Positions 3 to 34,429 of a DNA stretch of 40,972 nucleotides are shown piece by piece. The stretch lies in the NCBI GenBank assembly GCA_015486895.1, contig WFQT01000188.1:1-40972 (forward strand), given 5' to 3'. Source of the stretch: Anaerolineae bacterium. GTDB taxonomy: Bacteria > Chloroflexota > Anaerolineae > JAADDB01. How positions within the stretch are numbered: position 1 is the stretch's first letter; each line of letters starts with the position of its first letter. The position numbers were made by a program, and so were the translations under genes. The notes under the pieces are model-generated. The model searched no databases. It saw nothing but the letters and a program-made list of their open reading frames with translations, and was not told where the DNA came from.

Positions 3-638
3 GGAGGTAGTGGGGATGCGCTTCCTCTTAAGTTGGGTAAGAACACTATCGGCCGTCAAGATGACAATGATGTTACGCTGCGCGATTCGACAGTTTCCCG
101 ACATCATGCGGTGATTTTTGTGGAGCGCGATGTGGTGACCCTGCAGGATTTGGGTTCCAGTAACGGGACTTTTGTGAACAACCAGCGTTTGAGCAAAGTG
201 CGGAGCCGGGTAGAGCCGGGTGTCAATATCCGTTTTGGAAATCAAGAATTTACTCTCCGCAAAGACAACGCGAGTAGTGATGATACGGTTCATCAGAGTA
301 ACAAAAGAGAGCCCCAAAACGGATCCGCCCAGGCTAAACAAGTTGATTCTAAGCAACTGAAACCGGCCTTTCTGGTTGATGGTGGAGGGCAGCGCATACC
401 TTTGCAGAAAAAAGAAACGAAAATCGGCCGTAGTCCGGCTAACGATGTAACACTGAATGACCAGGCTGTTTCCACAAATCATGCTGTCATTACTGTGAAG
501 GAGGGGAAGTTTGTCCTGCGCGATTTGGATTCGACTAATGGCACCATAGTCAACGGAGCGAAAGTAAAGGAACATGTATTGCAGCAAGATGACATAATCC
601 AGTTTGGCAAAGCGAAATATGTATTCCAGGTCGGTTGA
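3..638 (+). CDS. Protein with two tandem FHA domains (5' end truncated by window edge)
   Basis: The frame is open to the window edge (GGSGDALPLKLGKNTIGR...). FHA signatures are GR..(N)DVTL..STVSRHHAVI...DLGSSNGTFVN and IGRSPANDVTLNDQAVSTNHAVI...DLDSTNGTIVN. Confidence 0.93.
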   Translation, partial: GGSGDALPLKLGKNTIGRQDDNDVTLRDSTVSRHHAVIFVERDVVTLQDLGSSNGTFVNNQRLSKVRSRVEPGVNIRFGNQEFTLRKDNASSDDTVHQSNKREPQNGSAQAKQVDSKQLKPAFLVDGGGQRIPLQKKETKIGRSPANDVTLNDQAVSTNHAVITVKEGKFVLRDLDSTNGTIVNGAKVKEHVLQQDDIIQFGKAKYVFQVG

Positions 639-693: not shown

Positions 694-3642
694 ATGAGAA
701 AGTCATTCTCTCAGTATTATTGGAGTGTTGTTGTCCTCATTGCAACACTTGTGATCCTCGTGTTGATAGGAGGGTATACCACGCTGGCTATGACAGAGAA
801 AGCAGACGCCGCAACTACAATGTTCAAGCCGAAGCCTCTAGATGTTATTCTGGTTGTTGACCAATCGCACAGTATGTTCACGATTAGCGATCCTTCCCAG
901 GTCATTACAGATACTCAGGGGAGGCCCATTGGTGAGATTCCTCCTGTGCGGCAATTGGCAGCTCAGTATTTCGTGGATTATTTGCATGTGGATCAAATAC
1001 CCAGTGTCGAAAACAGGGTTGGCATAATTTACTTTGGAGAGAAACCCGAACTGGCAGCTCCCTTGACAAATGTTTCCACGGATCAAAATGTCAGACACTT
1101 GCACGATATATTAGAGGCAACACCCCCTGATTTGCATTGGACAGACACAGATGCCGCTTTCGAAGAAGCTTATAAGGTACTATTCAAGAGTCCCCAAGCC
1201 GATTCCAGCCACGAACACGTGGTTGTGTTCCTCTCTGACGGGCTTCCCCAGATTATCTATCCCTGGCCCATCGAAGACAGCACGAAAAAAGATGGGACGC
1301 CATTAGAGGGTAAGAGAAGTTACTATCTGCGTCACAAGAGGATTATCGAGCAGTTCAGTGAGAAAGGGGTGAGGTTTTATACTATTATTATTGCCAAGAC
1401 CGGATATGTGGATTACAACGACAAAGCACTCCAAGACCCTAAAATGGCCGGGCTTGGTTTCAAGAACTTCGCAAATCTGTGGCAGCAGGCCGCGACCGCG
1501 ACGGGTGGAGATTATTTCCGCTTGAGCGTTGGCAAAAATAACAGTCTGAAGCGCTCGGACCTGTTGGCGATTTACCACGCCATTTTGGCCAATCTGCTAA
1601 GTATTTCGCCATTACAGCGCTACCAAGGGGGGGTAACCGCCCCTGACCAGACTGTGCCTATTACAGTCGGTAAATGCCGGAAATTGTTGATTACAGTGCA
1701 GAAGGGCGAGAGTAATACCGAGGTTAGTCTCAAGACACCGGATAACCAGCTCATTCCTCCAACTACGGTGCGATCGACTTATGTGATCTACAAAGTGGAG
1801 AACCCCCCAACAGGGAGTTGGTGGCTTCGTTTCCAGGGCGGGCAGGGGACAAACTACAATGTCAGCCTGGATTGCGCGGATATTACCCTGCAGGCCAGGT
1901 TTCTCTCTCCGGGAAGTAGTTTCCAGCAATGCAAGCCCATGCCTATAGCTGTTAAGCTGGTTTCTGAAACCGGGGAACCTGTGAATGATGCACTGGTGGG
2001 GGTAAATATCCTTCTTCCTGATGGTAGCACGAAATCTTTGGCTTTGGACAATCGCGGACAGGGCTTGTATCAAAAGACATTCACAGAAACTAAGCAAGAG
2101 GGGAAATATCAACTTTCTTTGGAAGGTCATCAAGGAGATAAGATTGCCAAGCGTGAAAAGGGAGTCTCCTTGTTGGCTGTACCTTATTTAAGTCTTATCA
2201 GCCCTAAGTCCGGAATTCAGTTGCCGGGTGGCACTCTCTCCGTTGAGGCCGGGGTGAAAGTTGCGTGCGCATTAGCCTCGGGAGATGCGGATATCAGTAA
2301 CGGGAAGGCTACGGTTCGCACTTACCTGATCAGAAGCGATGGCACTAAAACGGCGCCCATCGAGCTTGTTGACGACGGGCGCAACGGTGACCACAAAGCG
2401 GGCGATGCTGTTTTCACTGGCGCTTTTTCTCAAGTTCAGAAAGGTGCATACGCTTTGGTGGTGGACCTCGCGGTTCCGGCGTTGAACGTTCAAGATCACA
2501 TCAAGGAGCAGATCACAGTAGGGATGCCGCCAACAAAAACACCTACGCCTACGGAGACACCTGTCCCCACAGCTACGCCAACTGCCACGCCGGCAAATGC
2601 CGGCCATTGGGTCGGGAAAAACAACATCACTGTTCGGGCCGGTACAAAGGGAGAAATACCATTACACTTTAACAGTTCGGGCTTGAAAGACGGGCAAGTA
2701 GTGCGCGTGAAACTCACAGGCGTGCCGGCCGGGCTGGCCCTGCATACGGACCGGGTCCAGATCTTGCCGGGGAAGAAAGACACAACTGCAGTACTTCATT
2801 TTTCGGTGGCGAAAGAGTTAGCGCCGGCCAAAGGTAAAAGCAAGAAAGTCTATGCCGGTACTTTAGAGTTGACCTATCCTGATGGCAAGACTAAGCATGA
2901 TCAGATAAGCTTCACAGTCTTGCCGCCGCCTACCTCTCCATGGGCGTATATCATCATTCTGGTAGTACTGTTGGCAATTGTCGGTGGACTACTTGGTGCG
3001 TACGTTTTCGTCCACGGACGTGGCCAGTTGGTTGGCAGGCTGGTATACGATAGTGCACCGGAAGGCACCGACACGTCTGATATTGACTTGTATGGTAACA
3101 AGTACGATCTGACACTGGATGAAATGCCAAGCTATGAAGAGGGAGAGACTATCCCTGAAGCAGAGAGCGACGATAATGACGGTCTTGGTGGGTACGATAG
3201 CTATGAGGAAAACGACAGCGTGGGGCCTCAAGATGAGCCGTTACATGCAACACTGACGTTTTTCGCTCGCCGAGGAAATCAGGAGGCGGTCTTGAAAGTT
3301 ACTGAAAGTAATAAAGCTGTCTCTGTTAACGGCGGTCTGCTAAGTCAAGGAGAAACCAAGAAACTAAATGATGGGGATATCATTGAAGTGGGTAGTTACA
3401 AATTGCACTATGAATATTTAGGTGTTTCCGGAAATGAAGATGAAGGTTGGCAGACAGAAGAAAACGGATGGGATACAGGGGAATACGGGGATTATACTGA
3501 AGGAGATGACACGGGTGAATACAGTGGTGGCGGTTTCGGAGACTCTGACCAAGGAACTGGATACGACACTGGTAGTTCCGGTGACTATGATCAGGGAACT
3601 GAATACGATGACAGCGGAAATGATGGTTACACAGATTATTGA
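694..3642 (+). CDS. Membrane-anchored VWA-domain protein with degenerate FHA-like cytoplasmic domain and acidic tail
   Basis: N-terminal hydrophobic anchor; MIDAS motif DVILVVDQSHS; Thr/Pro linker TPTPTETPVPTATPTATP; TM WAYIIILVVLLAIVGGLLGAYVFVHG; FHA-like C-terminal half NGGLLSQGETKKLNDGDIIEVGSYKLHYEYL; D/E/G/Y-rich tail. RBS aggagg upstream. Confidence 0.9.
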   Translation: MRKSFSQYYWSVVVLIATLVILVLIGGYTTLAMTEKADAATTMFKPKPLDVILVVDQSHSMFTISDPSQVITDTQGRPIGEIPPVRQLAAQYFVDYLHVDQIPSVENRVGIIYFGEKPELAAPLTNVSTDQNVRHLHDILEATPPDLHWTDTDAAFEEAYKVLFKSPQADSSHEHVVVFLSDGLPQIIYPWPIEDSTKKDGTPLEGKRSYYLRHKRIIEQFSEKGVRFYTIIIAKTGYVDYNDKALQDPKMAGLGFKNFANLWQQAATATGGDYFRLSVGKNNSLKRSDLLAIYHAILANLLSISPLQRYQGGVTAPDQTVPITVGKCRKLLITVQKGESNTEVSLKTPDNQLIPPTTVRSTYVIYKVENPPTGSWWLRFQGGQGTNYNVSLDCADITLQARFLSPGSSFQQCKPMPIAVKLVSETGEPVNDALVGVNILLPDGSTKSLALDNRGQGLYQKTFTETKQEGKYQLSLEGHQGDKIAKREKGVSLLAVPYLSLISPKSGIQLPGGTLSVEAGVKVACALASGDADISNGKATVRTYLIRSDGTKTAPIELVDDGRNGDHKAGDAVFTGAFSQVQKGAYALVVDLAVPALNVQDHIKEQITVGMPPTKTPTPTETPVPTATPTATPANAGHWVGKNNITVRAGTKGEIPLHFNSSGLKDGQVVRVKLTGVPAGLALHTDRVQILPGKKDTTAVLHFSVAKELAPAKGKSKKVYAGTLELTYPDGKTKHDQISFTVLPPPTSPWAYIIILVVLLAIVGGLLGAYVFVHGRGQLVGRLVYDSAPEGTDTSDIDLYGNKYDLTLDEMPSYEEGETIPEAESDDNDGLGGYDSYEENDSVGPQDEPLHATLTFFARRGNQEAVLKVTESNKAVSVNGGLLSQGETKKLNDGDIIEVGSYKLHYEYLGVSGNEDEGWQTEENGWDTGEYGDYTEGDDTGEYSGGGFGDSDQGTGYDTGSSGDYDQGTEYDDSGNDGYTDY

Positions 3643-3741: not shown

Positions 3742-6507
3742 ATGAAAATGGCATATTACGATGATGTTGCTGCAGGCGAAGAAGAAGAATTGGCGCCAGA
3801 AGTGACCATGGAATTCCGACCGACATTGATTATTGGCTTGGGTGGTACAGGTCATGAAATATTGGTACGCTTAAAGGCCCGGTTTTTGGACACGTACGGA
3901 GAGAAAATCTCTCACGTCATTAAGTTGATCTCGTTCGATACGGCGGACGAAAGCATTAATGTGGTTTCGGAAAAAGGGCGACTGGTAAGTCTTACCAAAG
4001 ATGTGGAGTTGGTCAACATTGGTCACGTTCCGGTGGGCAGTATTCTTAGAAATTTGGATCGTCACCCGACCATCAAGGCCTGGTTGCCTACCAATCTGCC
4101 GGTGCGCGCTATCACGGCTGGCGCTAAAGCAATCCGCCCTTTAGGGCGGTTAGCGCTTTTCTATCATTACAGCCAGGAGGCGCGCGTCCGTGATCGCTTG
4201 TTGACCTCGATTCGCTCTTTGACGAATATAAAGCTCAAAGGCGAAGTAGGGGAAGGCGCTGTTGTCGCAAAAACGCGAGGGTTGAATGTCTTCATCGTTG
4301 CGTCTGTATGCGGTGGCACTGGAAGCGGTACCTTTATCGATATGGCTTACTTGACCAAAAAGCTCATCGAGAATAACGGCATACAACCAGAATTTTGTTT
4401 CATAAATGGGATGTTGGTACTTCCCCAAGCGTTTGCCATGGTTGCTTCGGATGCCATTATGGCCAATGCTTATGCTTCCCTTCGCGAATTGAATTACTTC
4501 TCGAAAGAGGGTAACTATTATGCGAAGTATCCAGATGGGTTAGAAGTCCAAATTCACAACCGACCGTTTAATATTTGCTATCTCATCGATGCTGTCAATG
4601 AAAATGGTAAGACATTGACCGGCTTAGAGGATTTAGCTCCGATGATCGCTGAGAGTATTTTCCTGCAAATTGGCTCTCAGGTGGGTAAGGCCACGCAAAG
4701 CGTGTTCGATAATGTGAAGAGCCTGGATCGCATGGAGAACGGGGAACCTACAGCATTTAGCAGCTTAGGTACGGCGTCTTTGGTTTTTCCGGCCAAACGT
4801 ATCATTGAGGTCTGTTCGTATCGTTTCGGCCAGGCTTTGATTCGTGAGGCTGTCACGCATGATCCTGACAAGGGAGCAGTGCCGGAGCTTGTACGCCAAT
4901 TCCAAGAGAAAAGTCATGTGCTGCCGAAGGCACTTCTAAGTGATGTGATGCGTGATCCGAAGGGGCGAGAAATCAGGATTGGACTGGAAGCCAGCAAAGA
5001 GATTCGTGACGCTAATCGTGAAGAGGTATTGAAGCGGACTGAATCATTTGTCCAGAATTTCGAAATCCGACGCTTGAATGGCGATTACATGAAATTGGGT
5101 AATAGCAATGCCAAACGCATAACAGCTAAACTACGCCAAGACTTGGTTGCCGAAACGCACAGAATCGTTGATGATCCTCAGCTAGGGCCTGTGCTGGCTG
5201 TGTTGTTCCTGGAAAGGCTGGATACTGAGTTGAAGAAAATGTTGGCTGCACTCGATAAAGAGCGGCAACGACTCAGCGGGCAACTAAATGCCGTAAAGAA
5301 GCAAATCAACGGTGTGAAAGCCGGTTTTACGGCTGCCTTGAATTCGTTTCCATTGGGAAGAGGTGGACGCATCGCCAAAGCTAGAGATGAATATCTCTCG
5401 GTACGGCAAAAACAGTTCACGCTCCAGCTCGAGATCATGAAGCGCAACCTTATTCTCGGCGCTTTGTCAGATTTCGACAGTGAGGTCGCAGAGTCGAGAA
5501 AAGCCGTCGGTATAATGGTCGACAAGTTTAACGCGGTGGCTCACCGTTTCGAGCGGGAGGAAAAGGAAGCACGAAGGGGCGAACGTTTTGCTCAAATGGT
5601 GCTGACAACGGAGATTACCGATGATAAGGACTTGGACCGCTATTATGGCGAACACGCAGGGGCGGTAGCTGAGAATTTCAACCGCTACCTGGAACGGATC
5701 GGCAGCCTTTACGATATAGGAAAGAAAGATGAAATAACCATTGGCAGAAGCATTTTTGAATTCTCGCAAGGTCTGTTCCAGCCTCTCTTCGATATTCATT
5801 TGGAAGACCTGATTCGCGAGAAACGACACGCCATATCGCCAGAAGAGCGGCTGGAAGATTTGCGCACGGATTCAGTGCCATTTTGGAATTATGAGGCTGC
5901 TAAAATGACGGGCGGTGGCGAGATGGAATCCATTCGCGTCATTGGCGTTGAGGACAAGAACACGTCTCTGTATCGGGATGCCATTCGCAAAGGGGAGACT
6001 TTGATTTCCACACGAGATCCCCATCGCCTGACCGTTTTACACTCGAAGCATGGTTTGCCACTCTTCGCATTGCGTCAACAAGACTTTTACGCGAAGAAAT
6101 ACGAAGAACATTTGCGGAAACGCGTCAGTCCTTTGCACCTGTTTCCTGATTTGCCCTGGTTGGAAGGTGAGGAAGCTGCACACCAATGGTTTGCTTTGGG
6201 TCAGGCTTTTGGATTAATCAAGAAAATTGGTGTGTGGTACTACTGTCAGCCCAAAGACAGTTTGGAGGTAGAGGTCAAACTAGATCAAGGATTGCGTCAG
6301 TCATTAGATGCGTTCACTCAAAACCAACAGCTCATTGATGACATCAAAGGACAAATTGAAGCCAAAATCAGGAATATGGGGAACAAGAAAGCTATAGAGG
6401 TTTTGCAGGAATATCAAGACCGCGCTTTGGCTCGAGATCCCGAAGTGCGACAACTGGAGATTCATTTGAAGAAACTGGTTAGGGAATTTGCTAACCAGAT
6501 GGAATGA
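3742..6507 (+). CDS. Tubulin/FtsZ-like GTPase (Tubulin_2-like family)
   Basis: N-terminal TLIIGLGGTGHEIL nucleotide loop; tubulin signature VCGGTGSGTFIDMAYL; coiled-coil-like central region. ATG at 3742 or 3748, preceded by aggagg. Confidence 0.88.
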   Translation: MKMAYYDDVAAGEEEELAPEVTMEFRPTLIIGLGGTGHEILVRLKARFLDTYGEKISHVIKLISFDTADESINVVSEKGRLVSLTKDVELVNIGHVPVGSILRNLDRHPTIKAWLPTNLPVRAITAGAKAIRPLGRLALFYHYSQEARVRDRLLTSIRSLTNIKLKGEVGEGAVVAKTRGLNVFIVASVCGGTGSGTFIDMAYLTKKLIENNGIQPEFCFINGMLVLPQAFAMVASDAIMANAYASLRELNYFSKEGNYYAKYPDGLEVQIHNRPFNICYLIDAVNENGKTLTGLEDLAPMIAESIFLQIGSQVGKATQSVFDNVKSLDRMENGEPTAFSSLGTASLVFPAKRIIEVCSYRFGQALIREAVTHDPDKGAVPELVRQFQEKSHVLPKALLSDVMRDPKGREIRIGLEASKEIRDANREEVLKRTESFVQNFEIRRLNGDYMKLGNSNAKRITAKLRQDLVAETHRIVDDPQLGPVLAVLFLERLDTELKKMLAALDKERQRLSGQLNAVKKQINGVKAGFTAALNSFPLGRGGRIAKARDEYLSVRQKQFTLQLEIMKRNLILGALSDFDSEVAESRKAVGIMVDKFNAVAHRFEREEKEARRGERFAQMVLTTEITDDKDLDRYYGEHAGAVAENFNRYLERIGSLYDIGKKDEITIGRSIFEFSQGLFQPLFDIHLEDLIREKRHAISPEERLEDLRTDSVPFWNYEAAKMTGGGEMESIRVIGVEDKNTSLYRDAIRKGETLISTRDPHRLTVLHSKHGLPLFALRQQDFYAKKYEEHLRKRVSPLHLFPDLPWLEGEEAAHQWFALGQAFGLIKKIGVWYYCQPKDSLEVEVKLDQGLRQSLDAFTQNQQLIDDIKGQIEAKIRNMGNKKAIEVLQEYQDRALARDPEVRQLEIHLKKLVREFANQME

Positions 6508-6884
6508 AGTGTTCGGCGGCGGTTTTTCTAAGGGTAACTATTACCAGCCCGATTTAATGGCTGTTTTTGAGAATGACCTCCTTGCCAAACAGTAATTTCC
6601 AGCAGAGACTCGGGCTGGTAGCATTCAGCAATGGGAATTACAGCGACAATTCGGGGAAAGACTGTTATTGATTCAGAACTGCATTAATGTGTGTTGGCTC
6701 TAAAGTGGTTGCTGCAAGCCCATTTTACAGACCATGCGGTTTGAGCCATCATATTTGACGCATGTTCTTGTTTGTGTCTCCAAGAATTTGGTGTATTCTG
6801 AACAACTCGGGCGAGGAATCAGTTTATCAGACGAAATTAGCTTTGGGTCAGACTCCGATGATTGTGGAGAAAAGAGGTGCTGCA

Positions 6885-9800
6885 ATGGAAAGAACGATAA
6901 GACAGGCATTAATTGTAGGTATTGGAGATACCGGGATAGCAGTGCTTTCAAGACTGCGGGAACGCCTTGTCCACTTATCAGATGGGAAAGGAGTTCCTGT
7001 CATATCGCTTGTTGGGATCAGCGAAAATGGTAACTTTCCGAGAAACGAGCTTCCTGCAGGAGAGGAGGTACAGCCTATCCATCAAATTACTTTGTCCGCA
7101 AGATCTGTAGATGATGCTGTTTTGCAATTGCTGTCACCCGAGCTTCAAGAAGCAATCATAGCGATGAAACCGGCTGGACAATCTGAGGCGTCTACCCGGT
7201 TGACCGGTTGGCTGAAGTTTTTCTCTAACGCGCCGTTTATCGAATCCACACTCCGGCAATGGACGTTGCAGGTCATAGACACGGCCGCCAAAGATAAACT
7301 CAAGAACATGGGCATGGGAGTTCATTCCACTGCGGCCCTGGATGTTTTCGTTGTTGGGGCATTAAGCGATCCTTTTACCAGCGGCACGTTAGTCGAGTTT
7401 CCCTACTTGCTTCAGCATATTTTGGAACATCAGATGATTGCGGAACGCATAACTAAGCGTTACGCCGGTGTTCTTTTTTTACCGGTTTTTGCCGACGAGA
7501 CTCACGATGGTGAAGATATTAATGAACGTCGTAAGAGAGAGTATACGCAACAGGCTAACACCTATGCCGCTCTAAAGGAACTGGACTATTACATGGACCA
7601 GGGGCATTACAAGATGAGTTTTGATCCGGGGTTGCGAGTAGAACAGATTAGGGCACCTTATGACTACGTTTATTTGGTTGATGCGGTGAATGAAGCCAAT
7701 CAAAGGATCCCTACCCGCTCTCAGATGACCGAAATGGTAGCTGAATGGTTCGATCAGACTTTGACCACCACAATGGGCGAAGAACTGAGCAAGCAAAGTA
7801 CGCAAGGCGGAATAGCGCGTTCCTTTGGGAAATTGGCGGTTTACAGCGGTTTTGGGCTTTCAGCCTATATTTTACCTGTGGAAGAGACTATTGACGTTGG
7901 TGCAATCCGTTTGGGGCTGGATATGCTGGGTCGCTCTAAGGGGTTGTTGAAAGAGCAGCCCCCGGAAGCCATCGAGCCGGTCGTTTTCTCCGCAGTAGAT
8001 AAGGACGGGGTTGTCGCTCGGCTGCGTAATGGTAATGGGGGCGACAAAAAGATTGCCGCTTATACAAACCAATTTGACAAGCCTTTCCGGCATATGGCCC
8101 CTTACGACCTGAAAGCCTTTTTTGAGACGGTTTATAAATCGTTTGGACATAATTACACCAGGCTTCTGCCGGTTATTGAAAGGAATATGGCGACTAATCT
8201 GGAAGACCTTCTCGATGAAAAACAAAAAGAGGTCGAAGACAAAGCCTTTGAGCTGATCGATGATAACCATATCGGCGGTATTTCCCTGGCTATCCGTGCC
8301 TTGCAGTCACTGACGGAGCGTTTGAATAAGTTAGTCGCTGTAGAACGCGGGAACTTGGACTTGATAACTGGTCAATTGAAAGAGGCAACTGAGGATGTGA
8401 CTAAGACACAAGCAGCTCATGTCGCTGCTGTTTATGCTTTTTATCCGGAGGATTGGAGAGAGCAGATCGTTGTCTGGGGTGGTTTGATTGGTTTCTTGGT
8501 ATTTTCATTTTGGCTGTCTATTACATCGTTTCTGTTCGCTAAAGACAATTTGGCTGGTTTAGTTGCTGAGTGGAGCGGCGGTGATCTAAGTTTTTTAGCT
8601 CGCGCTGGCTTACAACTGGCTACTTTTCTCTTCCTTATCGCGGCTCTGTTTGCTGTGGGCGTGGCCGGATATAATGCCTACCACTGGTGGAAGCGTACTC
8701 GCTCTAATTATGTCTCTACCCTAAAAACAAGATTGACAGATGCTCTAAAGAAGGTTGTGACCTCTATGACGCTTCATTACTTTTCCGCTATAGAAAGGGT
8801 GAGTAAAGAGGTCAACGGCCAAGTTGTAGATTTGCGGGATAAAGTGGAAACCGTCCAGGATGCGTTGCAACAACGGTTTGCTGCGCCTCATGCGTTGTAT
8901 GGTTCGCGACGTTTCTTGCTGGAAGAGTCTTTACTGACGGAAGAAGATTTTGATGAGTTTTATGAAGAGATTGTTGGGGGTTCTGTCGAGGACGAACTCT
9001 ATAGATTCTCCCAGCCGGAGCAATATGGCACTATTTCCGGATGGCGGGATATGGAGCCGAAGGAAATAGAAGACAAGTTACTTGCGTTTGGCAGGGGATA
9101 TCTGTCTCCGGGATTGAAGGAAAAGGATGTCGAGACGCTTTTAGTCAAACATGCTCAGTTGAGTGAACCCAACGAATCTGGAAGACACCCTTACTCTCCA
9201 ACGGCCAATGATGAGGATGCTAAGATTCGTGCTGTACAAGAGAAAATGAAAGATTTGATCGACTCTGCCAAGCCATTCTTGCGCTATAATTCCACGGCAC
9301 TTGATACAGCGGTAAATCCGTCGTTGATTCAGGTAGTTGGTTTTCTCCAGGCTAACAATGATGATTCTTTGGTACAAAAAGCGGTGGAGCAAATTGGTAT
9401 TGGCTCTGGGGCAACAATCCAAACAGTGCGTGTACCCGATCGCTATCATATTATTTCCATGTCAGTCCGGCATGGCCTGCCTTTGTCTGCCGTTAGTATG
9501 CTTGCGAGTTATCGAGAACAGTATAGCCGGTTTCGGGCCAGGAATGAGGTAGGTTTGCATGCCCAAAGCAAGTATCTTATGTTGCCGGATATTTTCCCCC
9601 TCCGTTTCGAGGGAAAGATTATATCAGAACCGCAAGAAGCGGTTGCTCTGGGCCTCGCTTTTGGCAAAGTGCACTGGAACTCGCGCCAAAAGCGCTACGA
9701 GTGCCAGTATCATGACAATTTCCTGGAAAAGAATATTGTCGTGCCTCTGGGAGAGGATAAAACTGCCGCCACAATGTTTCTACAAGAGCACGTGGAGATA

Positions 9801-10067
9801 CTATCAATCCTCTCTGAACAAATCGATGAAGATGTAACCCGTAGAAGTCGACAAAAACTGAGTGTGAGTGCTCTGGGAGATACGGCAGGCGAAAGTGCTA
9901 CAATTACGACGGAATCTGCTAAAGGCATCGTGGGCGGTAATCGTTCAGTTATTAAGTTCTTGCTCGATTACCTGGAAAAGAACAAAAAGAGTAGAAGCAA
10001 ACGAAAAGCGTTAGCCGATTGGGAAATTCTTGTAATCGAGGAGTATATTACTAAATTGAGAAGATAA
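6885..10067 (+). CDS. Membrane tubulin-like paralogue with degenerate GTPase signature
   Basis: Start MERTIRQALIVGIGDTGIAVLSRL preferred (gaggtgctgca upstream). It aligns with the preceding gene (YAALKELDYYMDQGHYK...YDYVYLVDAVNEANQ / YASLRELNYFSKEGNYY...FNICYLIDAVNENGK; RHGLPLSA / KHGLPLFA) but GGTGSGT is replaced by SDPFTSGT. Two TM segments (IVVWGGLIGFLVFSFWLSITSFLF; LATFLFLIAALFAVGVAGY). Confidence 0.85.
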   Translation: MERTIRQALIVGIGDTGIAVLSRLRERLVHLSDGKGVPVISLVGISENGNFPRNELPAGEEVQPIHQITLSARSVDDAVLQLLSPELQEAIIAMKPAGQSEASTRLTGWLKFFSNAPFIESTLRQWTLQVIDTAAKDKLKNMGMGVHSTAALDVFVVGALSDPFTSGTLVEFPYLLQHILEHQMIAERITKRYAGVLFLPVFADETHDGEDINERRKREYTQQANTYAALKELDYYMDQGHYKMSFDPGLRVEQIRAPYDYVYLVDAVNEANQRIPTRSQMTEMVAEWFDQTLTTTMGEELSKQSTQGGIARSFGKLAVYSGFGLSAYILPVEETIDVGAIRLGLDMLGRSKGLLKEQPPEAIEPVVFSAVDKDGVVARLRNGNGGDKKIAAYTNQFDKPFRHMAPYDLKAFFETVYKSFGHNYTRLLPVIERNMATNLEDLLDEKQKEVEDKAFELIDDNHIGGISLAIRALQSLTERLNKLVAVERGNLDLITGQLKEATEDVTKTQAAHVAAVYAFYPEDWREQIVVWGGLIGFLVFSFWLSITSFLFAKDNLAGLVAEWSGGDLSFLARAGLQLATFLFLIAALFAVGVAGYNAYHWWKRTRSNYVSTLKTRLTDALKKVVTSMTLHYFSAIERVSKEVNGQVVDLRDKVETVQDALQQRFAAPHALYGSRRFLLEESLLTEEDFDEFYEEIVGGSVEDELYRFSQPEQYGTISGWRDMEPKEIEDKLLAFGRGYLSPGLKEKDVETLLVKHAQLSEPNESGRHPYSPTANDEDAKIRAVQEKMKDLIDSAKPFLRYNSTALDTAVNPSLIQVVGFLQANNDDSLVQKAVEQIGIGSGATIQTVRVPDRYHIISMSVRHGLPLSAVSMLASYREQYSRFRARNEVGLHAQSKYLMLPDIFPLRFEGKIISEPQEAVALGLAFGKVHWNSRQKRYECQYHDNFLEKNIVVPLGEDKTAATMFLQEHVEILSILSEQIDEDVTRRSRQKLSVSALGDTAGESATITTESAKGIVGGNRSVIKFLLDYLEKNKKSRSKRKALADWEILVIEEYITKLRR

Positions 10068-10849
10068 CAGGGTGGTTGTGTATTGTTCGCAGCGGTGAAT
10101 TACAAGAAATTTTGCTCGTTACCAGTCGGCCGTTTCAGTGGGGAGATGATTGGTAAAATGGCATTCTGCTTTTTGCCGACTTATTCTGATACATTGGTGT
10201 TGTCCGGGAGAGATGTAAGGAATCTGCGGAGAACCTACGTAATCAGCGTTCCACTTGACCCAGATTGAGCAGTTACGCTCTCTCAATCTATTAGGGTGAG
10301 AAAAAGATGATGAGGCGAGAGACGGACGCATGTTGGGAAATAGCTCGTTTCCTTTCGCGTCTCCGTGATTGGTCGAGTGCTGTTGACAGGTCTGTTGAGT
10401 AACAGGTTCGACGAATTCGCTAAACAACTAAAGCTCAGCTCTGCTATGTTTGGAGCCTGCCTAAACTATCCATAGAAAATGATTTGACAGGGAAGCAGCC
10501 TGCCAGTTGTGTGTTCGTTGCTTTCGAAGCTGTCTCTGCGCGTTCTGTACTCCTTGCAGCTTCCGTTTCCAGCAGGTGGGTAACCAGTATAGAGCGTCAA
10601 TCAAAATGGGAAAGTAACATTACTTAGGACATTGCTAATATTGCGACATTGTAAGTTTTACTTGTTGAAGCGTCATGGTGGGCTATCAGGTGCATTTTAC
10701 AAGAATAATTGGGGCTGTTACCTTGACTGTGGACGCGAGATGGTGGATATGACCTGATATCGACGGGATAATGCAGGGTTTGGACAAATCGGGGGGCTGG
10801 ATGCTCATTCTTTTTTTCACGCCAAGTGGGCTACGCAGAAGGAGGAATC

Positions 10850-13630
10850 ATGTCTTTGCAACCTGGCATGCATTTAGGACGCTATGAAATTGTGGCTCTA
10901 CTCGGGGAGGGTGGATTCGCTAATGTCTATGAGGGCTACCAACGCGAGTATGACCGGCGGGTCGCCGTAAAGGTGCTTCACGAGTGGTTGGCCAAGGATG
11001 CACGCATTGTAGCCAGATTTAGGGAAGAGGCGATCAAAACATTCAACCTCCAACATCCCAATATTGTGCGTGTGTTGGATTTTCAGGAGGATCGCGGTCA
11101 TTATTTCATCGTGATGGAACTTGTAAATGGCCAGTCGTTACGCCAGCTAATCAATGCTCGTGACGCGACAGATTTTGTGCACGATGATGTGGCTGCGACT
11201 CGTCTTCACGATGACGCTAATGCCAAGACGCAGCTTCACCAGCTCTCCTCTTCTTATCAAGAACTCGATCTCGGCATCATTTCCAGCATTTTTCGGGATG
11301 TGTGTGCTGCGCTCACATACGCGCATGGCGAGCAGATCATTCATCGCGATGTGAAACCGGACAATATTCTGGTGGCGAGGGACGGCCGGGCATTGTTGGT
11401 GGATTTTGGTATTGCTAAAGCCCAGGATGAAGCGCTACATCTGACTAGTACCGGTGTGCGAATTGGCTCGGCTTTATATATGGCGCCGGAGCAAATCCGT
11501 GTGTCTGGCAAGCAAGAAAGCGATTATCGTTCCGATATTTATTCTTTGGGCGTCACTTTATACGAAGTATTGACCGGAACACCCCCTTTCGTCGCGAGAG
11601 AGGCGCAAAGCATCTGGAGAATGCATTTGGAGGACCAGCCGATTCCTCCCTCACGGCAGAAACCTGATTTACCTGAGCGACTCGACGCAGTTGTGCTCAA
11701 ATGCTTGGCGAAAGACCCAAACGATAGGTACCAGAATGCTACAGATGTTGCTCAGGCGCTTTCCGATCTGATAACACCCAAACCTATCACGATCTTGTTC
11801 TCCTCCACGCCACCGGTGACTGCCAAGAAGCGTCGCGAAGAGAAAGCGAAATTGGTATGTCCGGCATGCGGATATGATTTTCATGCTACGGATGTCAAAG
11901 CTATCTGTCCGGCGTGCGGGTACGAGTTCCCTGCTGAAGAAGGGGGACAAGCTTTCTCCCAGCGAGAGGCACGCGCCAGTAAATTCCTGCGTGATTTGGG
12001 CCTCAGTGCGGACTTATCACTTGATGTGAAGGCTTACGAGTATGACAAGAGCATCAAGACGCCTCTCCAGGCAGCTACCAGGCATGCTGTCGAACATGCC
12101 AAAGAAGTTTTCGCCGATGGTGTCGTTGTTCTTCCTGAAGAGAGTCCTGATCTGCCCCAGAAATACACTGACACCAGCGCTGCCTTGTTTGATGTAGCAG
12201 CATTGATGGAATCCCAAGCCTTGAAAGAATTTCAGGTTAAGCGAACGGCCCGGCGATATCGGCGACAGTCAGTCCATAAGGCGCGAGCATTGGCCTGTGC
12301 GGTAATAGGCAAATATCACACGTCGTTGGCTGCCTCTCGCGAGAACCACGATGAGGTGGTGAAGGGATACGAACAGTCTGTCAACTGGTATCAGAGGGCT
12401 CAGGAACACGGCAAGCAGAGCGATGAGCAAAGGGAGGCATTGACATCTCGCTTTGAGGCTGCGGAGATGCTCGTCAAGCTCATTTTGGACTTTCCGCCAG
12501 AAGGACAGGATCGATTAGCAGAGCAGGCTGTGCGCGTGTTTGATGATTTGCCACCTGACTTTTGGGGTGCTGAAGCAGATAAGAAGAAAGCAAATAGTTA
12601 CCGGGGACTGTATGCCGAGAAATTGGAGACGATAGAAAGAGCTAAGAAGGAAATTGCTAATACGCAAGCCACAACCCTCGGCTATGGGAAGAAATGGCGT
12701 GCTTCTGATGAGAAATCTTTACTGGCGCCGTTACGCGCTCGGTTAAATACGTTGTTTGCACAACAACTGCCTTCGCTGTTGCCTCATGACGCTGAAATAC
12801 ATTTGACGCTTTGGATTGGCATTTTTCTCTTATGGCTTTTAGGGCGCGCACTGCTCCCACTTGGATCTTTGATCCGGGCTGCACACGTGTTAGCATTGCT
12901 GCCAATGCCTCACTTTTTATCTCCTGCCATTGGATTGATTGGGACTGCCATCAGCGGCCTGTTGATTTTAGCGCCGTGGATTTTAGGGTATTGGGGTGGG
13001 TATGGGCGCGCTCGTCCCAGCGTAAAGCATTTCAACCAGATCGATCTAATCCTTTCTTTTGTTGCCATTCTGACGCTATTGCCGTGGTTGGGGCTCTGGC
13101 TTTATGGGGCCTTACTGATGGGTTTGGGGGTTATAGCCGGTAGATATTTGGACAAAAAGAGAGCTTTCAAACGTGGGGATAAAGTAGGTATGGTTATTGG
13201 AGGTGCGTTGTTGGTGCTCTTTTTGCTCTATCTCGTGCTTTATGCTGCACCGCTCACTTTGGTGTTGGCGGCGCTTGTCGGCTTGGCCGGTTGGCTGAGT
13301 GGTGACTATCTGTGCCGGTTGGATGTGACGTCCACGGCGTTACAGCAGATCAACGAGAATCTCTCGTTGCTGGAAAAAGAGTCGACGCTCCTTGTGGCTC
13401 GGCTGCTGTACAGTGTGGATCGGGATGAGTTCGTGAATGTGGAAGCGTTGAAAAGTGGAACTGAGGACTTTCGAAACGGGTTAACCGAGATCGTTTTCGA
13501 CGGTAGTACGGGCTGGACGGTCAAGGGACTCGTAATGCAGTTGAAGAAAAGCACGATTTCTCTTTTGCGCCATGGGGTGCAGGAAGCAAGCGTCAGATTG
13601 AGAAAAGGCAAAGATCGGCAACAGAATTAA
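10850..13630 (+). CDS. Ser/Thr protein kinase with double CPACGY zinc-ribbon and C-terminal TM helices
   Basis: LGEGGFANVYEG, VAVKVL, IIHRDVKPDNI, DFGIAK, APEQ; CPACGYDF...CPACGYEF; several hydrophobic helices. ATG 10850 preceded by aaggagg. Confidence 0.93.
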   Translation: MSLQPGMHLGRYEIVALLGEGGFANVYEGYQREYDRRVAVKVLHEWLAKDARIVARFREEAIKTFNLQHPNIVRVLDFQEDRGHYFIVMELVNGQSLRQLINARDATDFVHDDVAATRLHDDANAKTQLHQLSSSYQELDLGIISSIFRDVCAALTYAHGEQIIHRDVKPDNILVARDGRALLVDFGIAKAQDEALHLTSTGVRIGSALYMAPEQIRVSGKQESDYRSDIYSLGVTLYEVLTGTPPFVAREAQSIWRMHLEDQPIPPSRQKPDLPERLDAVVLKCLAKDPNDRYQNATDVAQALSDLITPKPITILFSSTPPVTAKKRREEKAKLVCPACGYDFHATDVKAICPACGYEFPAEEGGQAFSQREARASKFLRDLGLSADLSLDVKAYEYDKSIKTPLQAATRHAVEHAKEVFADGVVVLPEESPDLPQKYTDTSAALFDVAALMESQALKEFQVKRTARRYRRQSVHKARALACAVIGKYHTSLAASRENHDEVVKGYEQSVNWYQRAQEHGKQSDEQREALTSRFEAAEMLVKLILDFPPEGQDRLAEQAVRVFDDLPPDFWGAEADKKKANSYRGLYAEKLETIERAKKEIANTQATTLGYGKKWRASDEKSLLAPLRARLNTLFAQQLPSLLPHDAEIHLTLWIGIFLLWLLGRALLPLGSLIRAAHVLALLPMPHFLSPAIGLIGTAISGLLILAPWILGYWGGYGRARPSVKHFNQIDLILSFVAILTLLPWLGLWLYGALLMGLGVIAGRYLDKKRAFKRGDKVGMVIGGALLVLFLLYLVLYAAPLTLVLAALVGLAGWLSGDYLCRLDVTSTALQQINENLSLLEKESTLLVARLLYSVDRDEFVNVEALKSGTEDFRNGLTEIVFDGSTGWTVKGLVMQLKKSTISLLRHGVQEASVRLRKGKDRQQN

Positions 13631-13674
13631 AGTTAGCATGAACAGTCATGGGAAAGCGGATCGGGGAGGAAGGT

Positions 13675-15402
13675 ATGAGTATTGCGGAATATTCCAATGT
13701 CATTGATCACCTACCGTCCATCAGGGAGATTAGAAATCTCCATAGGGCTAAGACAGGAACTCACACTCATGGTGATGTTTTCTTACTTCATCATACTGGC
13801 AATGAGGGAGTGGTTTTGAAACTCTTGTTCGAAAAACTGGTGAGCGATCAGGCATTCCAGTCGGGATTTCTTAAGGCCGCTGCGATAGCGGCTAAGTTGG
13901 AACATCCCAACTTTGTCCGCGTGTTTGGCGCCAAAAAGGTGGGCAACCAAGTGGTGTTGGCGATGCAATACGCTGACAAGGGGAGTCTCAGTGATGTCTT
14001 GGATAAGGCCGACGATAACAAACTTTCTCTCGACAAAGCGGTTCGAGTTTTAGCAGGTATCTGCGCTGCGCTAGAATACGCACATGAAAAACGAATTACG
14101 CATTGGAACATCAAGCCGGGGAGCGTATTGTTAACCAGAAATGATCAGGTTAAGCTCGATGCCTTTGATTTGGTTATGGCAATGATGGAAGCGCACGGAG
14201 GTGGGAATGCCCGTGATACCGAGGTAAAAGGTTTGGGGTCCGTGTTTTACGAAATGGTAACGGGATTACCTTACGACGAAGATACCACAAGACTGGGCAT
14301 TATTAGACCTGGAAAATTACGGAAGGTTATTAGGCGGTCGTTGGAAAGTGGTAACGGCAATCCTTATCGGAATGTGAGTCAGTTTTGCGAGGATTTTAAG
14401 AGATCTCTCCCTAAATCAGGGGGAGTGCTTGTGGCACTTGGCGATGTTTATCGCACAGCTAAACAAAGGCTAACTATTCGGTGGGAATATCCTGTTGAGC
14501 TTGATTCTGATTATTATCCTTCAGCGATTCGGTTGAACCGGGATGGGGATGTCTATTTGCTTTTGTCGTCTCGATCACAAAATGCGGGTCTGGTTTATTT
14601 TTACGACAAGCGATTTGCTGGCAAAGCTCGGCAGGAATATTCAATCGAGGGGATACCGATCAATGCATTTTTGTCCGACAATGGTGGCATTCTTTACATC
14701 GTGATACGTGGCCAGACTAACGAGTTGAGGATTTTGGAGTGGGATACTTCAAGAAAGAAATGGATTCAGGACTGGTATGTCCCTGGCGATGGGATCAGGC
14801 AGATATTGAGAATTAGAAATGATGGTAGGTTTCTTCTTGTCGAGGAGAACCAGCTTGTTATATGGGATGCCTTTCGCGGTCAATCGAAAGCAGTGAACGC
14901 AAAGTTAAGGAACAAAGAGATTATCTTGGCTGCTTATAAGGACGAGGGTGGCATTAGGATTATTTCATCACTTATCAAGAATTCTACTAGCACTGACCTA
15001 TGTATAGATATCTCTCGATTTGTTCTTGATGGTACAATTTTCTGTCGCCACCTGGACGAGCAGCAAGTTGGCGGGGATAATGATGAGCCAATGGAACGCT
15101 CGGTGCCAGCCGCCGGCCGTCGTTATTTGGGTTTTCGTATAGACGATTTACGGCTGTTCTTTTTTGATATTTCAAAGCGATCTGTTGTTTCAGTCAAATT
15201 GCCGTACAATTATGCCACTTGCGCCTCTACAATTGGCGAGCCCACTGGTGAACTGGCCATGCTGAATAAAGATATTGCCAAGGAAAGTCTTTTGTGGTGG
15301 GTCGGAAATAGAAGCGTAGCTGTTGCCATACAACAAAACCGTGAACGATTCGTACGGATCTATCCTTTGACGTACCTTCATCACATCTTGGGAGTGGGTT
15401 AA
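13675..15402 (+). CDS. Pseudokinase with C-terminal beta-propeller-like region
   Basis: Kinase fold recognisable (VVLKLL, LEHPNFVRVFG, ALEYAHEK) but HRD becomes HWN (THWNIKPGSVLL), DFG becomes DAF, and APE is absent. Repeated YLLLSS/LYIVIRG/LLVEENQLVIWD strand-rich segments follow. ATG 13675 preceded by gaggaagg. Confidence 0.8.
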   Translation: MSIAEYSNVIDHLPSIREIRNLHRAKTGTHTHGDVFLLHHTGNEGVVLKLLFEKLVSDQAFQSGFLKAAAIAAKLEHPNFVRVFGAKKVGNQVVLAMQYADKGSLSDVLDKADDNKLSLDKAVRVLAGICAALEYAHEKRITHWNIKPGSVLLTRNDQVKLDAFDLVMAMMEAHGGGNARDTEVKGLGSVFYEMVTGLPYDEDTTRLGIIRPGKLRKVIRRSLESGNGNPYRNVSQFCEDFKRSLPKSGGVLVALGDVYRTAKQRLTIRWEYPVELDSDYYPSAIRLNRDGDVYLLLSSRSQNAGLVYFYDKRFAGKARQEYSIEGIPINAFLSDNGGILYIVIRGQTNELRILEWDTSRKKWIQDWYVPGDGIRQILRIRNDGRFLLVEENQLVIWDAFRGQSKAVNAKLRNKEIILAAYKDEGGIRIISSLIKNSTSTDLCIDISRFVLDGTIFCRHLDEQQVGGDNDEPMERSVPAAGRRYLGFRIDDLRLFFFDISKRSVVSVKLPYNYATCASTIGEPTGELAMLNKDIAKESLLWWVGNRSVAVAIQQNRERFVRIYPLTYLHHILGVG

Positions 15403-19833: not shown

Positions 19834-20706
19834 ATGTTCAACTGGAAACGGGCTGTCTTGGTATTATCGACATCGTTACTCGCGACTATTCTGCTTTCTG
19901 CTTGTTCTTTTCAGGTGAACGTCTATGTGCATAAAGGGGAGAAATGGAAAGTCGAAGAAAAACTGGCTATGCCGAAGAACTTGGGCAGCCTCGGCCTCCA
20001 GATGGAGGGATTGGGCATCAACTTGCCACTGAACACGGAGTTGCCGCTGACTATGGCTTTCAATCAGATGACGGCTGCTTGTCCGCAACACGGGTGGGAA
20101 TGCAAAGTAGACAAATCCACCAAGAAGGACGGGACAATCTTTCTGTTCACGGCGCAAGGTCAGGGCTATGATTCTTTGCAGACATTCCTTAATTCCGCGG
20201 GAACTTCTTTTGGGCAGCAGTTCCAGGGAAAAAGCGGAAACATCGCGATCCCTTCGCTCACCGTTCGGGAAGAGAACGGCGGGGTGCACATTGCTGATGC
20301 TTCCGTTGGCGCCCAGCCGTTGACTGCAGAATCGAAAGCGTTGATTGGCTCACTGTTTCCGGTAAAAGTTCGCATTCACGGCCGGAAGATCATTGGTAGC
20401 AATGCCGATGAAGTCCAAGGAGGCACAGCTATCTGGAATTCGGCACGTCCGATAGATGTGACCTTGGTCCCCGGCGGTGCCACATCCTTGCCTGCCATGC
20501 TGGGGTTGGCGCTTGCCGGAGTTGTAATTGTATTTGGCCTCGTAGTGGCTGCCATAAAGCTGTTGCCCTCCAAATTCTCTTTTGGCAAGGTACACAACGT
20601 ACCTCCCGAATGGGGCAGTGACACATGGGGAAACGAGGGCGAGCCGGACTACGGGGAATCTGCCTCTTTTGACGAGTACGGAGATGATGCAGATGAGTGG
20701 TCTTAA
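19834..20706 (+). CDS. Lipoprotein with second, C-terminal TM anchor and acidic tail
   Basis: Lipobox LLSAC at residues 20-24; C-terminal TM MLGLALAGVVIVFGLVVAAIKLL; tail PEWGSDTWGNEGEPDYGESASFDEYGDDADEWS. Confidence 0.85.
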   Translation: MFNWKRAVLVLSTSLLATILLSACSFQVNVYVHKGEKWKVEEKLAMPKNLGSLGLQMEGLGINLPLNTELPLTMAFNQMTAACPQHGWECKVDKSTKKDGTIFLFTAQGQGYDSLQTFLNSAGTSFGQQFQGKSGNIAIPSLTVREENGGVHIADASVGAQPLTAESKALIGSLFPVKVRIHGRKIIGSNADEVQGGTAIWNSARPIDVTLVPGGATSLPAMLGLALAGVVIVFGLVVAAIKLLPSKFSFGKVHNVPPEWGSDTWGNEGEPDYGESASFDEYGDDADEWS

Positions 20707-20750
20707 CGTTGAATTGCGGTATAGTTAGGGTTGAGAGCGGGGAAAAGCAA

Positions 20751-22973
20751 ATGACGGACCAGGATATTCCGTTGCTTCATGATGATAAAACGCGGCTTCG
20801 CTCAGAGCGAGGTTCCTCGCGCTCGCGAGCCGGTGAAAATCCTGACGAACTTAAAACGCGGTTGAAACCGGATGGGCGATTGGCGGAAAGCGGCGCAGAT
20901 AACGGTCTTGTGGTAGCCGGTTATACCACTATACGTCGTATCGGGGCGGGGGGATTCAGCACTGTCTATCAGGCTCGCGATGCCGCAGGCCGTGACGTAG
21001 CGATAAAAGTTTTGAACGAGAACTTTGCCCATTCTGAAGATATTTTAGAACGTTTTCGACGGGCTGCAACGATTGTGGAGAAGTTTGATCATCCTAATAT
21101 AGTGCATGTGTTGGGACTGGTTGACGCCGGCGGCCGGCCGGGGCTGGTCATGGAGTTTGTCCAAGGGAGAACCTTGGAAGAGGTCGTACAAGAAGAAAAC
21201 GGACTGCCCGTGGATCAATCCATTAGCATTGCCGCTCAAATGTGTGATGCTTTGGCTTATGCGCACAAACGGGGTGTGATTCATCGTGATGTCAAACCGT
21301 CGAATATCCTTTTGCTACCTAAGAATGATCACGCACAAGAGGGCTGGATCGCCAAGCTGACGGACTTTGACATTGCCAAGATTGTCACCGAGACTGGATT
21401 CACTCATTCCGGGACACAAATGGGGACGCCGTACTTTGTAGCCCCGGAACAGTGGCAAGGAAAACATGACATTGATGGCCGGGCTGATGTTTTCAGCTTA
21501 GGCGTCGTCTTGTACTACATGCTTACAGGTACCGTGCCTCAAGGGCGCTTTGGCCACCCTTCTGATACCAACCCGGACATACCCCGCCGGATTGGAAGTG
21601 TTATCCTGAAAGCCGTTGCCCTAAACAGGGACATTCGTTATCCGGATATGGTTGCTCTAAAGAAAGCGTTAGTGGGCGACAGGGTAACGAAAGCTTCTCA
21701 AGATATTCCATTTGAGTTCCGTTTGGGAGTACAAGCACATAGTTTGGACGAATTGGTTGACCAGTGTGATGCAGACTGGGCTACAGGACTGCAGCATCTT
21801 GAGGATGGCGACATTCTTATCTGGCTGGAACGTGTCAGTCCGGATCTTGTGCCATGTGTACAAAGTGCTATAGCTGGGACGGGAAATCGTGATGAGGCAT
21901 TGGAAAAGACGTTGCACTGCATAGATCCGTTTCTGCCGTGGCCAGTGCTGGAAACAGATCCGTTTTCGCTAAATTTTGAGGAACTGGCCCCCGGCGAGCA
22001 GCAAACAAGAACGATAACGATTCACAATCCCAGTCGCGGCTATTTGTTAGGGCAGATTGCTGAAACGCCTGAATGGATAACCGTGGGGTCAGAGGTGTTC
22101 AGGTGTTTGGCAGGGGAGAGCCGGACGATAAGTATTCAGGTGCAGGTACCGGAAAAGGCCCAATCACAGGCTATGAATGGGGCGTTGCGATTGGAGTCTA
22201 ACGGCGGGAATGCCAGTATCCCTGTTTCTGTGACTGTCGGGCGGCGACTCTTGCTTCGGCCTGACTACTCCGTGGGCTCGTTGGAAGAGTTATGTGATAG
22301 TGCTCAGCATGATTGGTACCAGATTCGTGCATTGTTATACAACGGCACGTTAGCTGACTGGTTGCGTCAGAGTTTACTTCTCTTCAGTCTGGCGAATGCG
22401 GCCAAAGACGTCGTGTCCCGGGAACAGGATCGTGATGCCGGTCTTTTCGGTTTCTTGGCGGACAATTGTCCAGATCCCAAGCGATGCTTGCCGCCAAGAT
22501 TAGTCACCCGGTCGACTCGCGTGGGTTTCGGTAAAGGCATTCGTCAGCTAGACCCTGTTCGGGTAACTATCCGAAATATTGGCGGCGGCGATTTGCGGAG
22601 TTTGAAGATCGTTGGTCGGCCAAATTGGGCAAAAGTGAGAATAGCCAAAGCAGGTCAGCGACGTGTACTCGTTGAACTGGCCGGGGAAAGGCGTAAAGCC
22701 AACAGTAGCGTTTCGGTAGGTGTTGTGAAGTTCTCTTTGCCTGATGATAATCCAGTGCCTAAATGGGGCAGTGTCAAGATAGGAATCACCATGGAAGTTC
22801 CGCTTGTGTTAAGGCTCTTTGAACAAATTATCTCTTGGCGGGTGTTGGTTGCCGGTCTTCTGATCGGGACTGCTGGAGTGATTTTGGCCCACTTTGTTGG
22901 CTGGCAATGGGTGTTACTGGTGGTTGTTGTCAGTGTGGTCAGCTTTGCAATAGTGTTCTATTCGTTTTCATAG
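20751..22973 (+). CDS. Membrane Ser/Thr protein kinase (paralogue A) with duplicated helical/Ig-like modules
   Basis: IGAGGFSTVYQA, VAIKVL, HRDVKPSNILL, DFD (variant DFG), APEQW; two copies of a SL(D/E)EL..C...W..../Ig-like module; C-terminal TMs. ATG 20751 (MTDQDIPLLHDDKTRL). Confidence 0.92.
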   Translation: MTDQDIPLLHDDKTRLRSERGSSRSRAGENPDELKTRLKPDGRLAESGADNGLVVAGYTTIRRIGAGGFSTVYQARDAAGRDVAIKVLNENFAHSEDILERFRRAATIVEKFDHPNIVHVLGLVDAGGRPGLVMEFVQGRTLEEVVQEENGLPVDQSISIAAQMCDALAYAHKRGVIHRDVKPSNILLLPKNDHAQEGWIAKLTDFDIAKIVTETGFTHSGTQMGTPYFVAPEQWQGKHDIDGRADVFSLGVVLYYMLTGTVPQGRFGHPSDTNPDIPRRIGSVILKAVALNRDIRYPDMVALKKALVGDRVTKASQDIPFEFRLGVQAHSLDELVDQCDADWATGLQHLEDGDILIWLERVSPDLVPCVQSAIAGTGNRDEALEKTLHCIDPFLPWPVLETDPFSLNFEELAPGEQQTRTITIHNPSRGYLLGQIAETPEWITVGSEVFRCLAGESRTISIQVQVPEKAQSQAMNGALRLESNGGNASIPVSVTVGRRLLLRPDYSVGSLEELCDSAQHDWYQIRALLYNGTLADWLRQSLLLFSLANAAKDVVSREQDRDAGLFGFLADNCPDPKRCLPPRLVTRSTRVGFGKGIRQLDPVRVTIRNIGGGDLRSLKIVGRPNWAKVRIAKAGQRRVLVELAGERRKANSSVSVGVVKFSLPDDNPVPKWGSVKIGITMEVPLVLRLFEQIISWRVLVAGLLIGTAGVILAHFVGWQWVLLVVVVSVVSFAIVFYSFS

Positions 22974-22996
22974 TTTCCATAATGGAGGCACTAACA

Positions 22997-23263
22997 ATGA
23001 TAAACGAGGAGAAACTGTTGACGGATATTTTTGTTGGTGTGGTTGCTGGGTTAACAATAAGCTTTATCACTTGGCTTCTGCAAGGTACTATCCATTTAGT
23101 GGCAAAACACCCCTGGTTAATTCTGATTTCTGGAGTTGTCGTTGCGGTAATTACTGTTCTTGGTATTTTCTACTACCGCTACGTATCAGAACCAATTGTT
23201 TCCTCGCCAGTAGAGACCTTTGAGGATAATCTCAGCGGAGAAGATGAAAAGGATTATATTTGA
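22997..23263 (+). CDS. Small two-TM membrane protein with acidic C-terminal tail
   Basis: MINEEKLLTDIFVGVVAGLTISFITWLLQ...HPWLILISGVVVAVITVLGIFYYRYV...FEDNLSGEDEKDYI; GGAGG 8 nt upstream of ATG 22997. Confidence 0.7.
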   Translation: MINEEKLLTDIFVGVVAGLTISFITWLLQGTIHLVAKHPWLILISGVVVAVITVLGIFYYRYVSEPIVSSPVETFEDNLSGEDEKDYI

Positions 23264-23309
23264 TTGTAGAGGAAAGTATAGTTTTGCTTGAGAAAGGAGA
23301 GAGTTGGTG

Positions 23310-25505: not shown

Positions 25506-25761
25506 GGTATTATTGCGGTGGACTTGTTCTCTTGTGCCGAGTACCCAAAGACAGGGTTTCTCAGGCCGATTGCTAAGTTAGAGAGTGCAGCCCCCGGGGA
25601 GTGCGACAGGGGCGTTCTTGGGCTCTTTGCATCTTCATGGTTCTGTTTCAGAGATATGCAGAAAGAGGAAGCTTGTTCGCTGTCTACGGAAATAGCGGAA
25701 TGCAGGTTCTGCTTTTATCGTCTAAAGAAGCAGTTGTTATGAAACAATACGGAGCACAGCG

Positions 25762-26892: not shown

Positions 26893-26943
26893 TCAGACCA
26901 GGATCACAGACAGAGATACAAGCAATTTGAGCGGGGAGCGAAG

Positions 26944-28971: not shown

Positions 28972-29151
28972 ATTTGGTAACCGTCATGGCTTTACCACCC
29001 GTCTTGTATAAGGCTATTTCATCTTATATAGAACGACTAACTTCATCTGTTTTAGATTTGCCCCTGGGTTGCGGAACAAGCATTGCAGTGGATAAATGTT
29101 GGCTTTTGTAAAAACGGATTTTGTCTCGGTATTCCTGCCAAGGAGGGAAAC

Positions 29152-30711: not shown

Positions 30712-30765
30712 GCCCATTCTTGCGTTTGTGTCTGGGGTGGGAAGTTGCGAAGGAGGAGATTCGAT

Positions 30766-34011: not shown

Positions 34012-34098
34012 TGTCGTTTTGCCGCAAATGGATAATCGATTTAACCCATAAACGAATTAAGGCGTGGGGCGTACAGCGAGAAATAGAAGGGGAGAGGC

Positions 34099-34428: not shown

Positions 34429-34429
34429 G

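Follow-up and report, generated by a model that had tools for sequence, protein, structure and literature searches.

Why would a bacterium keep, side by side, two relatives of tubulin of which only one retains the GTP-binding signature? This question is raised by a stretch of 40,972 nucleotides from an Anaerolineae bacterium (Chloroflexota; assembly GCA_015486895.1, contig WFQT01000188.1), referred to here as the window; it is the whole contig, and genes upstream of its start may be missing. Two of its open reading frames (ORFs), A (3742..6507) and B (6762..10067), are real and lie on the plus strand, as do all features whose coordinates are written below with two dots. A preliminary description had read A as a tubulin-like GTPase, B as its degenerate, membrane-embedded paralogue, and the two together as a heteromeric polymer anchored to the membrane by its inactive subunit. 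The relationship, the lost signature and the hydrophobic helices of B were all borne out, and the polymer is weighed below. The explanation that we favour, and consider fairly probable, is that A and B arose by an ancient duplication within FtsZl1 and act together at the cytoplasmic membrane, B being a pseudo-GTPase that serves A as membrane receptor or as subunit.

Protein B has the features of a degenerate FtsZl1 paralogue

Both proteins match Pfam Tubulin_2 (PF13809), the family treated as FtsZl1 in the relevant passages of Makarova and Koonin (2010; PMC2875224), above the family cut-off: A with 8.1e-66 over profile positions 1–355 of 356 and B with 3e-28 over positions 1–353. They are the only two Tubulin_2 members genome-wide. 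BLASTP aligns A and B over the N-terminal half (1e-23) and over a second block (1e-7) in the C-terminal region that holds HGLPL, and the shared blocks quoted in the preliminary description are all present.

The two proteins differ at the loops. A carries VCGGTGSGT, the T4 GTP-binding signature CGGTGSGT being encoded at 4309..4332, and a pattern search found the exact T4 pattern as a single copy genome-wide (4312–4331); its T1 loop, GLGGTG, is also intact. B has VGALSDPFTSGT at the signature position, as had been described, with SDPFTSG in place of CGGTGSG, and its T1 loop is likewise degenerate (GIGDTG). In the alignment described below, the degenerate T4 loop of B, LSDPFTSGT, corresponds to 7362..7388 (residues 201–209 of the 1101-residue ORF). 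FtsZl1/Tubulin_2 members have an intact, GGGTG(S/T)G-like T4 loop, which is found in A and missing from B, and a coiled coil followed by a C-terminal domain after the FtsZ-like domain, which both have according to AlphaFold2 models and the shared HGLPL block. Judged by its sequence, B is a degenerate paralogue rather than a standard member of the family.

A probably starts at ATG 3748, 6 bases past AGGAGG. Because an AGAGGTG ribosome-binding site lies upstream and other B proteins begin at about this point, we placed the most likely start of B at ATG 6885 (MERTIRQALIVGIG; MERTIRQALIVG), giving a protein of ~1060 residues rather than the 1101 of the ORF. The stretch between the genes (6508–6884) measures 377 bp up to where B probably starts, unusually long against the mostly <100 bp of relatives; neither an RNA family nor a clear promoter was found in it.

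The second difference lies in the stalk. In the AlphaFold2 model of A, which is of fair quality (predicted local distance difference test score, pLDDT, 79.5), a tubulin-like domain is followed by a soluble three-helix coiled coil (residues 429–612) and a C-terminal alpha/beta domain, and hydropathy detects no transmembrane segment in the stalk. The model of B shows the same domain order, and hydropathy identifies two hydrophobic helices at residues 569–587 and 609/617–635, the two transmembrane helices already attributed to B. In the model, with helices at 506–560, 565–597 and 609–707, this predicted hairpin (8466..8666; residues ~569–635) lies at the tip where two coiled-coil arms meet, between the second arm (506–560) and the returning helix (609–707), that is, at the place of the short turn 534–540 of A. 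We consider insertion of B into the membrane very probable. The best fold matches of the B model in the PDB are CetZ, FtsZ and tubulin (top match 8.6e-5); the A model gave only weak matches dominated by long helices, and a PDB sequence search returned no relatives. Matches to alpha-pore-forming toxins and to the bacterial dynamin 5owv are weak stalk matches, and the toxin matches were dismissed as generic long-helix likeness.

The contrast between A and B recurs in other genomes

The A/B pairs compared here came from genome searches plus a scan covering 85,000 species genomes; the resulting alignment comprises 31 A and 34 B proteins, and a few of its rows are near-duplicates. GGT[GN] is present in 31/31 A proteins, with exact GGTGSG in 25, and in 0/34 B proteins, of which 29 have Asp or Glu at the position of the first glycine. 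The T4 glycines and threonine (positions 191–194 and 196) fall from 96–100% conservation in A, where glycines 191, 192 and 196 are invariant, to 4–22% in B. Thus, one intact and one degenerate signature per pair, which the preliminary description had proposed to check, is the rule, and an intact signature, which would have spoken against it, does not occur among the aligned B proteins. The A/B contrast of the window is repeated in ~30 other loci, beyond what is expected by chance.

The hairpin is nearly as regular. Counting segments by hydropathy only, and leaving out two B proteins cut by contig ends, we found at least one hydrophobic stalk segment near the predicted coiled-coil tip in 29 of 32 readable B proteins and two, that is, a hairpin, in 26. 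None of the 31 A proteins and none of 19 solo FtsZl1 proteins has a stalk segment that reaches the stricter threshold of 1.6, some A proteins reaching just 1.25–1.54.

These data bear on the possibility that B is an ordinary decaying duplicate, a pseudogene-like remnant. B does evolve faster than A; however, frames of 800–1100 codons are open in ~30 loci, the hairpin was gained and kept, an acidic residue is kept in the lost loop and the B proteins form one deep clade. This reading is contradicted by conservation across many genera, and we regard it as extremely improbable. Several fold positions are kept: G34, L247, E249, L281 and P350 are retained in 85–100% of B proteins. A degenerate paralogue that keeps its fold positions could also inhibit A or promote its turnover at the membrane, as a pseudo-subunit that caps or disassembles; ARC3, a degenerate FtsZ homologue of chloroplasts, caps and disassembles and offers a comparison. 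Nothing specific speaks against this reading, but the stable tandem order and regular hairpin suit an anchor at least equally well, and we hold it to be distinctly unlikely.

The order vWA protein, A, B is found in tandem across Chloroflexota. When 150 genomes of the class were screened with a B-only profile, the clear matches lay directly behind A, with one exception (G002, discussed below), contrary to what would be seen if A and B never occurred together; in another genome (G044, locus L195) a cut FtsZl1 frame lies just before B. Beyond Chloroflexota, B is also present at two loci labelled Acidobacteria (L103 and L116); because the B protein of L116 is closely similar to the Chloroflexota B protein of L177, the label of L116 may be wrong. 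A genome labelled Bacillota (G600) encodes a B protein with an LDDPLASG loop and a hairpin that groups inside the B clade, and the search around this genome took in ~149 members of the phylum to which it belongs. At L228:3328-7056, in a genome labelled Bacillota, the B-clade protein has a hairpin and, within its tubulin domain, a long insert, and no A lies beside it on its contig stretch. Genomes from the phylum of G601 (labelled Armatimonadetes) gave mostly one match each with the B model. A further genome (G605, locus L227) has three tandem FtsZl1 genes, all with an intact CGGTGSG and none with a transmembrane hairpin; therefore, tandem duplication alone does not yield the A/B pattern.

Origin of the pair and a second architecture

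In a tree of 52 rows the B proteins form a single clade with a support of 86/90, which is not strong, and the long branches call for caution. A recent duplication within the lineage of the window, modeled by holding the A and B proteins of the window group together, was rejected (p 0.006). Over 24 pairs, the distances among A proteins in the tree correlate with those among their B partners (r 0.86; 0/5000 permutations), and B is the faster-evolving and more diverged of the two.

A second architecture, type II, pairs an A-like protein of ~1200 residues (mostly GGTGAG; intact in 9/10) with a large protein that has a signal peptide, a vWA domain, transmembrane segments and a C-terminal Tubulin_2 domain with an altered loop (GGFGSG, GGM-SG or DQVGSG; intact in 0/9). 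A single origin of the type I B protein and the degenerate type II copy, D, was rejected (p 1e-38). Because the type II group is separate from the B clade, it seems that the combination of an intact copy and a degenerate, membrane-anchored partner has at least two separate origins. Type II pairs, consisting of a soluble A-like tubulin and a signal-peptide/vWA/transmembrane protein of 1400–2400 residues, were observed at L171, L172, L173, L174, L175, L176, L183 and L047. A single frame of 3513 codons (L170:5299-15840) spans both type II proteins; we considered it as a Rosetta-stone fusion and dropped it, as it has a signal peptide in mid-frame and the joining stretch looks untranslated, suggesting read-through of a spacer.

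Do A and B form a filament?

The preliminary description had proposed a mixed A/B protofilament with B as a built-in membrane anchor, following the logic of alpha/beta-tubulin or of bacterial dynamin pairs. In support of this, A and B are paralogues of the same fold that are encoded in tandem and co-inherited, and Makarova and Koonin state, in the passages concerned, that the FtsZ-tubulin superfamily proteins characterised by 2010 all form filaments (PMC2875224). Against it, the same authors report that they were unable to identify in FtsZl1 the T6-H7 elements that filament formation involves; residues 313–336 of the A model, part of the T7/H7 region, are of low confidence, and N324 within them is present in 100% of A proteins and missing from all B proteins; and B has diverged more than A, which would not be expected of lattice subunits that are constrained alike. 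An adaptor, nucleator or inhibitor role of B would account equally for these facts. We hold the mixed filament to be possible yet doubtful. Filament formation in general, by A or by A with B, we rate at somewhat below even chances, since the T6-H7 elements went unidentified in FtsZl1 when the family was described and the T7 region of the A model is of low confidence.

The surrounding genes

The contig begins with a double-FHA protein (33..638; Pfam FHA 4.8e-44), whose gene may be cut, followed by a vWA protein that ends in a cytoplasmic FHA domain, by A and B, and farther on by kinases, SH3 and other membrane proteins. The vWA protein (694..3642; Pfam VWA_2 1.1e-8, FHA 0.0033) has an N-terminal transmembrane or signal segment (residues 12–30), an extracytoplasmic vWA domain with a DQSHS motif of the metal ion-dependent adhesion site type, a transmembrane segment (753–771) and the cytoplasmic FHA domain. 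In relatives that have both A and B, a vWA protein with transmembrane segments is nearly always encoded just 5' of A; the FHA tail was found in the window and in L033, L034 and L101 and not in 8 other recognised vWA partners. L033 has the gene run FHA, PP2C phosphatase, kinase, FHA, FHA, vWA-transmembrane-FHA, A, B. Downstream of B, a Ser/Thr kinase with a zinc ribbon and C-terminal transmembrane helices (10826..13630; Pfam Pkinase 1.2e-49) is a possible functional neighbour of the pair. Thus, an operon with a vWA protein and protein kinases, as described for FtsZl1, is found in the window and in relatives.

We note that the next gene (13648–15402) encodes a kinase-like protein with the catalytic loop HWNIKPGS (expected HRDxKxxN) and DAF at the DFG position, and from these motifs its product, two genes past the pseudo-GTPase, is likely a pseudokinase. 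Further along the contig, 20697–36412 contains no fewer than five additional Ser/Thr kinase genes whose products have C-terminal transmembrane segments, in some cases with SH3 or other domains beyond. No RNA families were found within the window using Rfam. A canonical FtsZ is also encoded in the same genome; it is therefore unlikely that A and B serve as the division FtsZ.

This gene content raises the possibility of a sensory or signalling platform without filaments: A and B would receive input in the cytoplasm from the transmembrane vWA-FHA protein and from the kinases, or would belong to a GAP1-N2-type conflict system. The regular upstream vWA-transmembrane gene and the FHA, Ser/Thr kinase and PP2C neighbours are consistent with it. 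In addition, Kaur et al. (2020; PMC7159879), in the passages on tubulin genes, describe such genes in neighbourhoods centred on GAP1-N2 GTPases, including two coiled-coil tubulin genes with vWA proteins in Firmicutes, which resemble the locus in the window. The vWA protein of the window also has a weak YtkA-like match (E 0.0025), yet no GAP1-type GTPase and no GAP1-N2 component was recognised in the Pfam scan of 19 window proteins. Similarly, a defence system was considered using PADLOC and rejected, the matches being generic kinases plus one weak match to the helical region of B (E 0.0093). Overall, we find the signalling platform unlikely, though less so than the inhibitor.

Discussion

We observe homology between A and B, conserved loss of the loop, a hairpin, tandem conservation and co-inheritance. 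Our working hypothesis is that A is the GTP-binding member of the pair, while B has lost the phosphate-binding T1 and T4 loops and kept the fold and the C-terminal domain. The two-helix hairpin at the tip of the stalk would place the A-like, non-switching tubulin fold of B at the membrane, where B, as receptor or inactive subunit, may recruit, nucleate or cap A in a GTP-dependent manner; direct contact between A and B is likely. In this reading, B would neither bind nor use GTP. The transmembrane vWA protein is encoded next to the pair, and the Ser/Thr kinase and FHA genes, together with PP2C in relatives, suggest control by phosphorylation.

Several observations weigh against this explanation. 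Three B-like proteins (L120, L181 and L182) have no clear transmembrane segment, and the model of B is of modest quality (pLDDT 62). Loss of T4 is no proof of lost nucleotide binding in B. G002 (L194) has B, with no A found, on a contig of 19.8 kb, and the B gene of G600 lies on a different contig from its A genes. Outside Chloroflexota A is mostly alone, and some Chloroflexota A genes (L045, L049 and L051) lack a downstream B; therefore, B is not obligatory and A can function without it. Finally, the correlation of A and B distances partly reflects the species tree, and co-inheritance with the species would give the same result.

Parts of this picture have precedents. The passages on FtsZl1 (PMC2875224) describe the N-terminal FtsZ-like domain, coiled coil and C-terminal domain that A, and more distantly B, share with the family, and operons with vWA proteins and protein kinases, published in 2010, with a canonical FtsZ coexisting, as in this genome; the main text passages do not mention a paired, loop-degenerate paralogue bearing a membrane hairpin. 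Likewise, neither of the two Firmicutes tubulins is called degenerate or membrane-embedded in the passages on them (PMC7159879). A search of the open literature, with most subscription papers outside its scope, found no report of a degenerate, membrane-embedded tubulin paralogue. Mitofusin, atlastin and bacterial dynamin pairs (5owv) also have an NTPase-fold domain, a helical stalk, a tip hairpin and paired paralogues; this is an analogy only, as the GTPase fold of dynamin-like proteins is unrelated and the loop of B is degenerate.

Taken further, the pair could be an obligate two-subunit machine of the tubulin superfamily, with a polymer anchored by its own integral-membrane pseudo-GTPase subunit, that arose twice, as type I with the hairpin-bearing B and as type II with the vWA-transmembrane-tubulin protein; we advance this extension tentatively and with more doubt than confidence.

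FtsZ is attached to the membrane by separate adaptors, FtsA, ZipA and SepF. A tubulin-superfamily paralogue that traded its GTP loop for a role at the membrane would, if true, mean that a membrane-bound cytoskeleton can be built in a different manner. In the literature we found no experimental function for FtsZl1, a family known since 2010; the pair gives it a concrete question to test: whether B brings A to the membrane.

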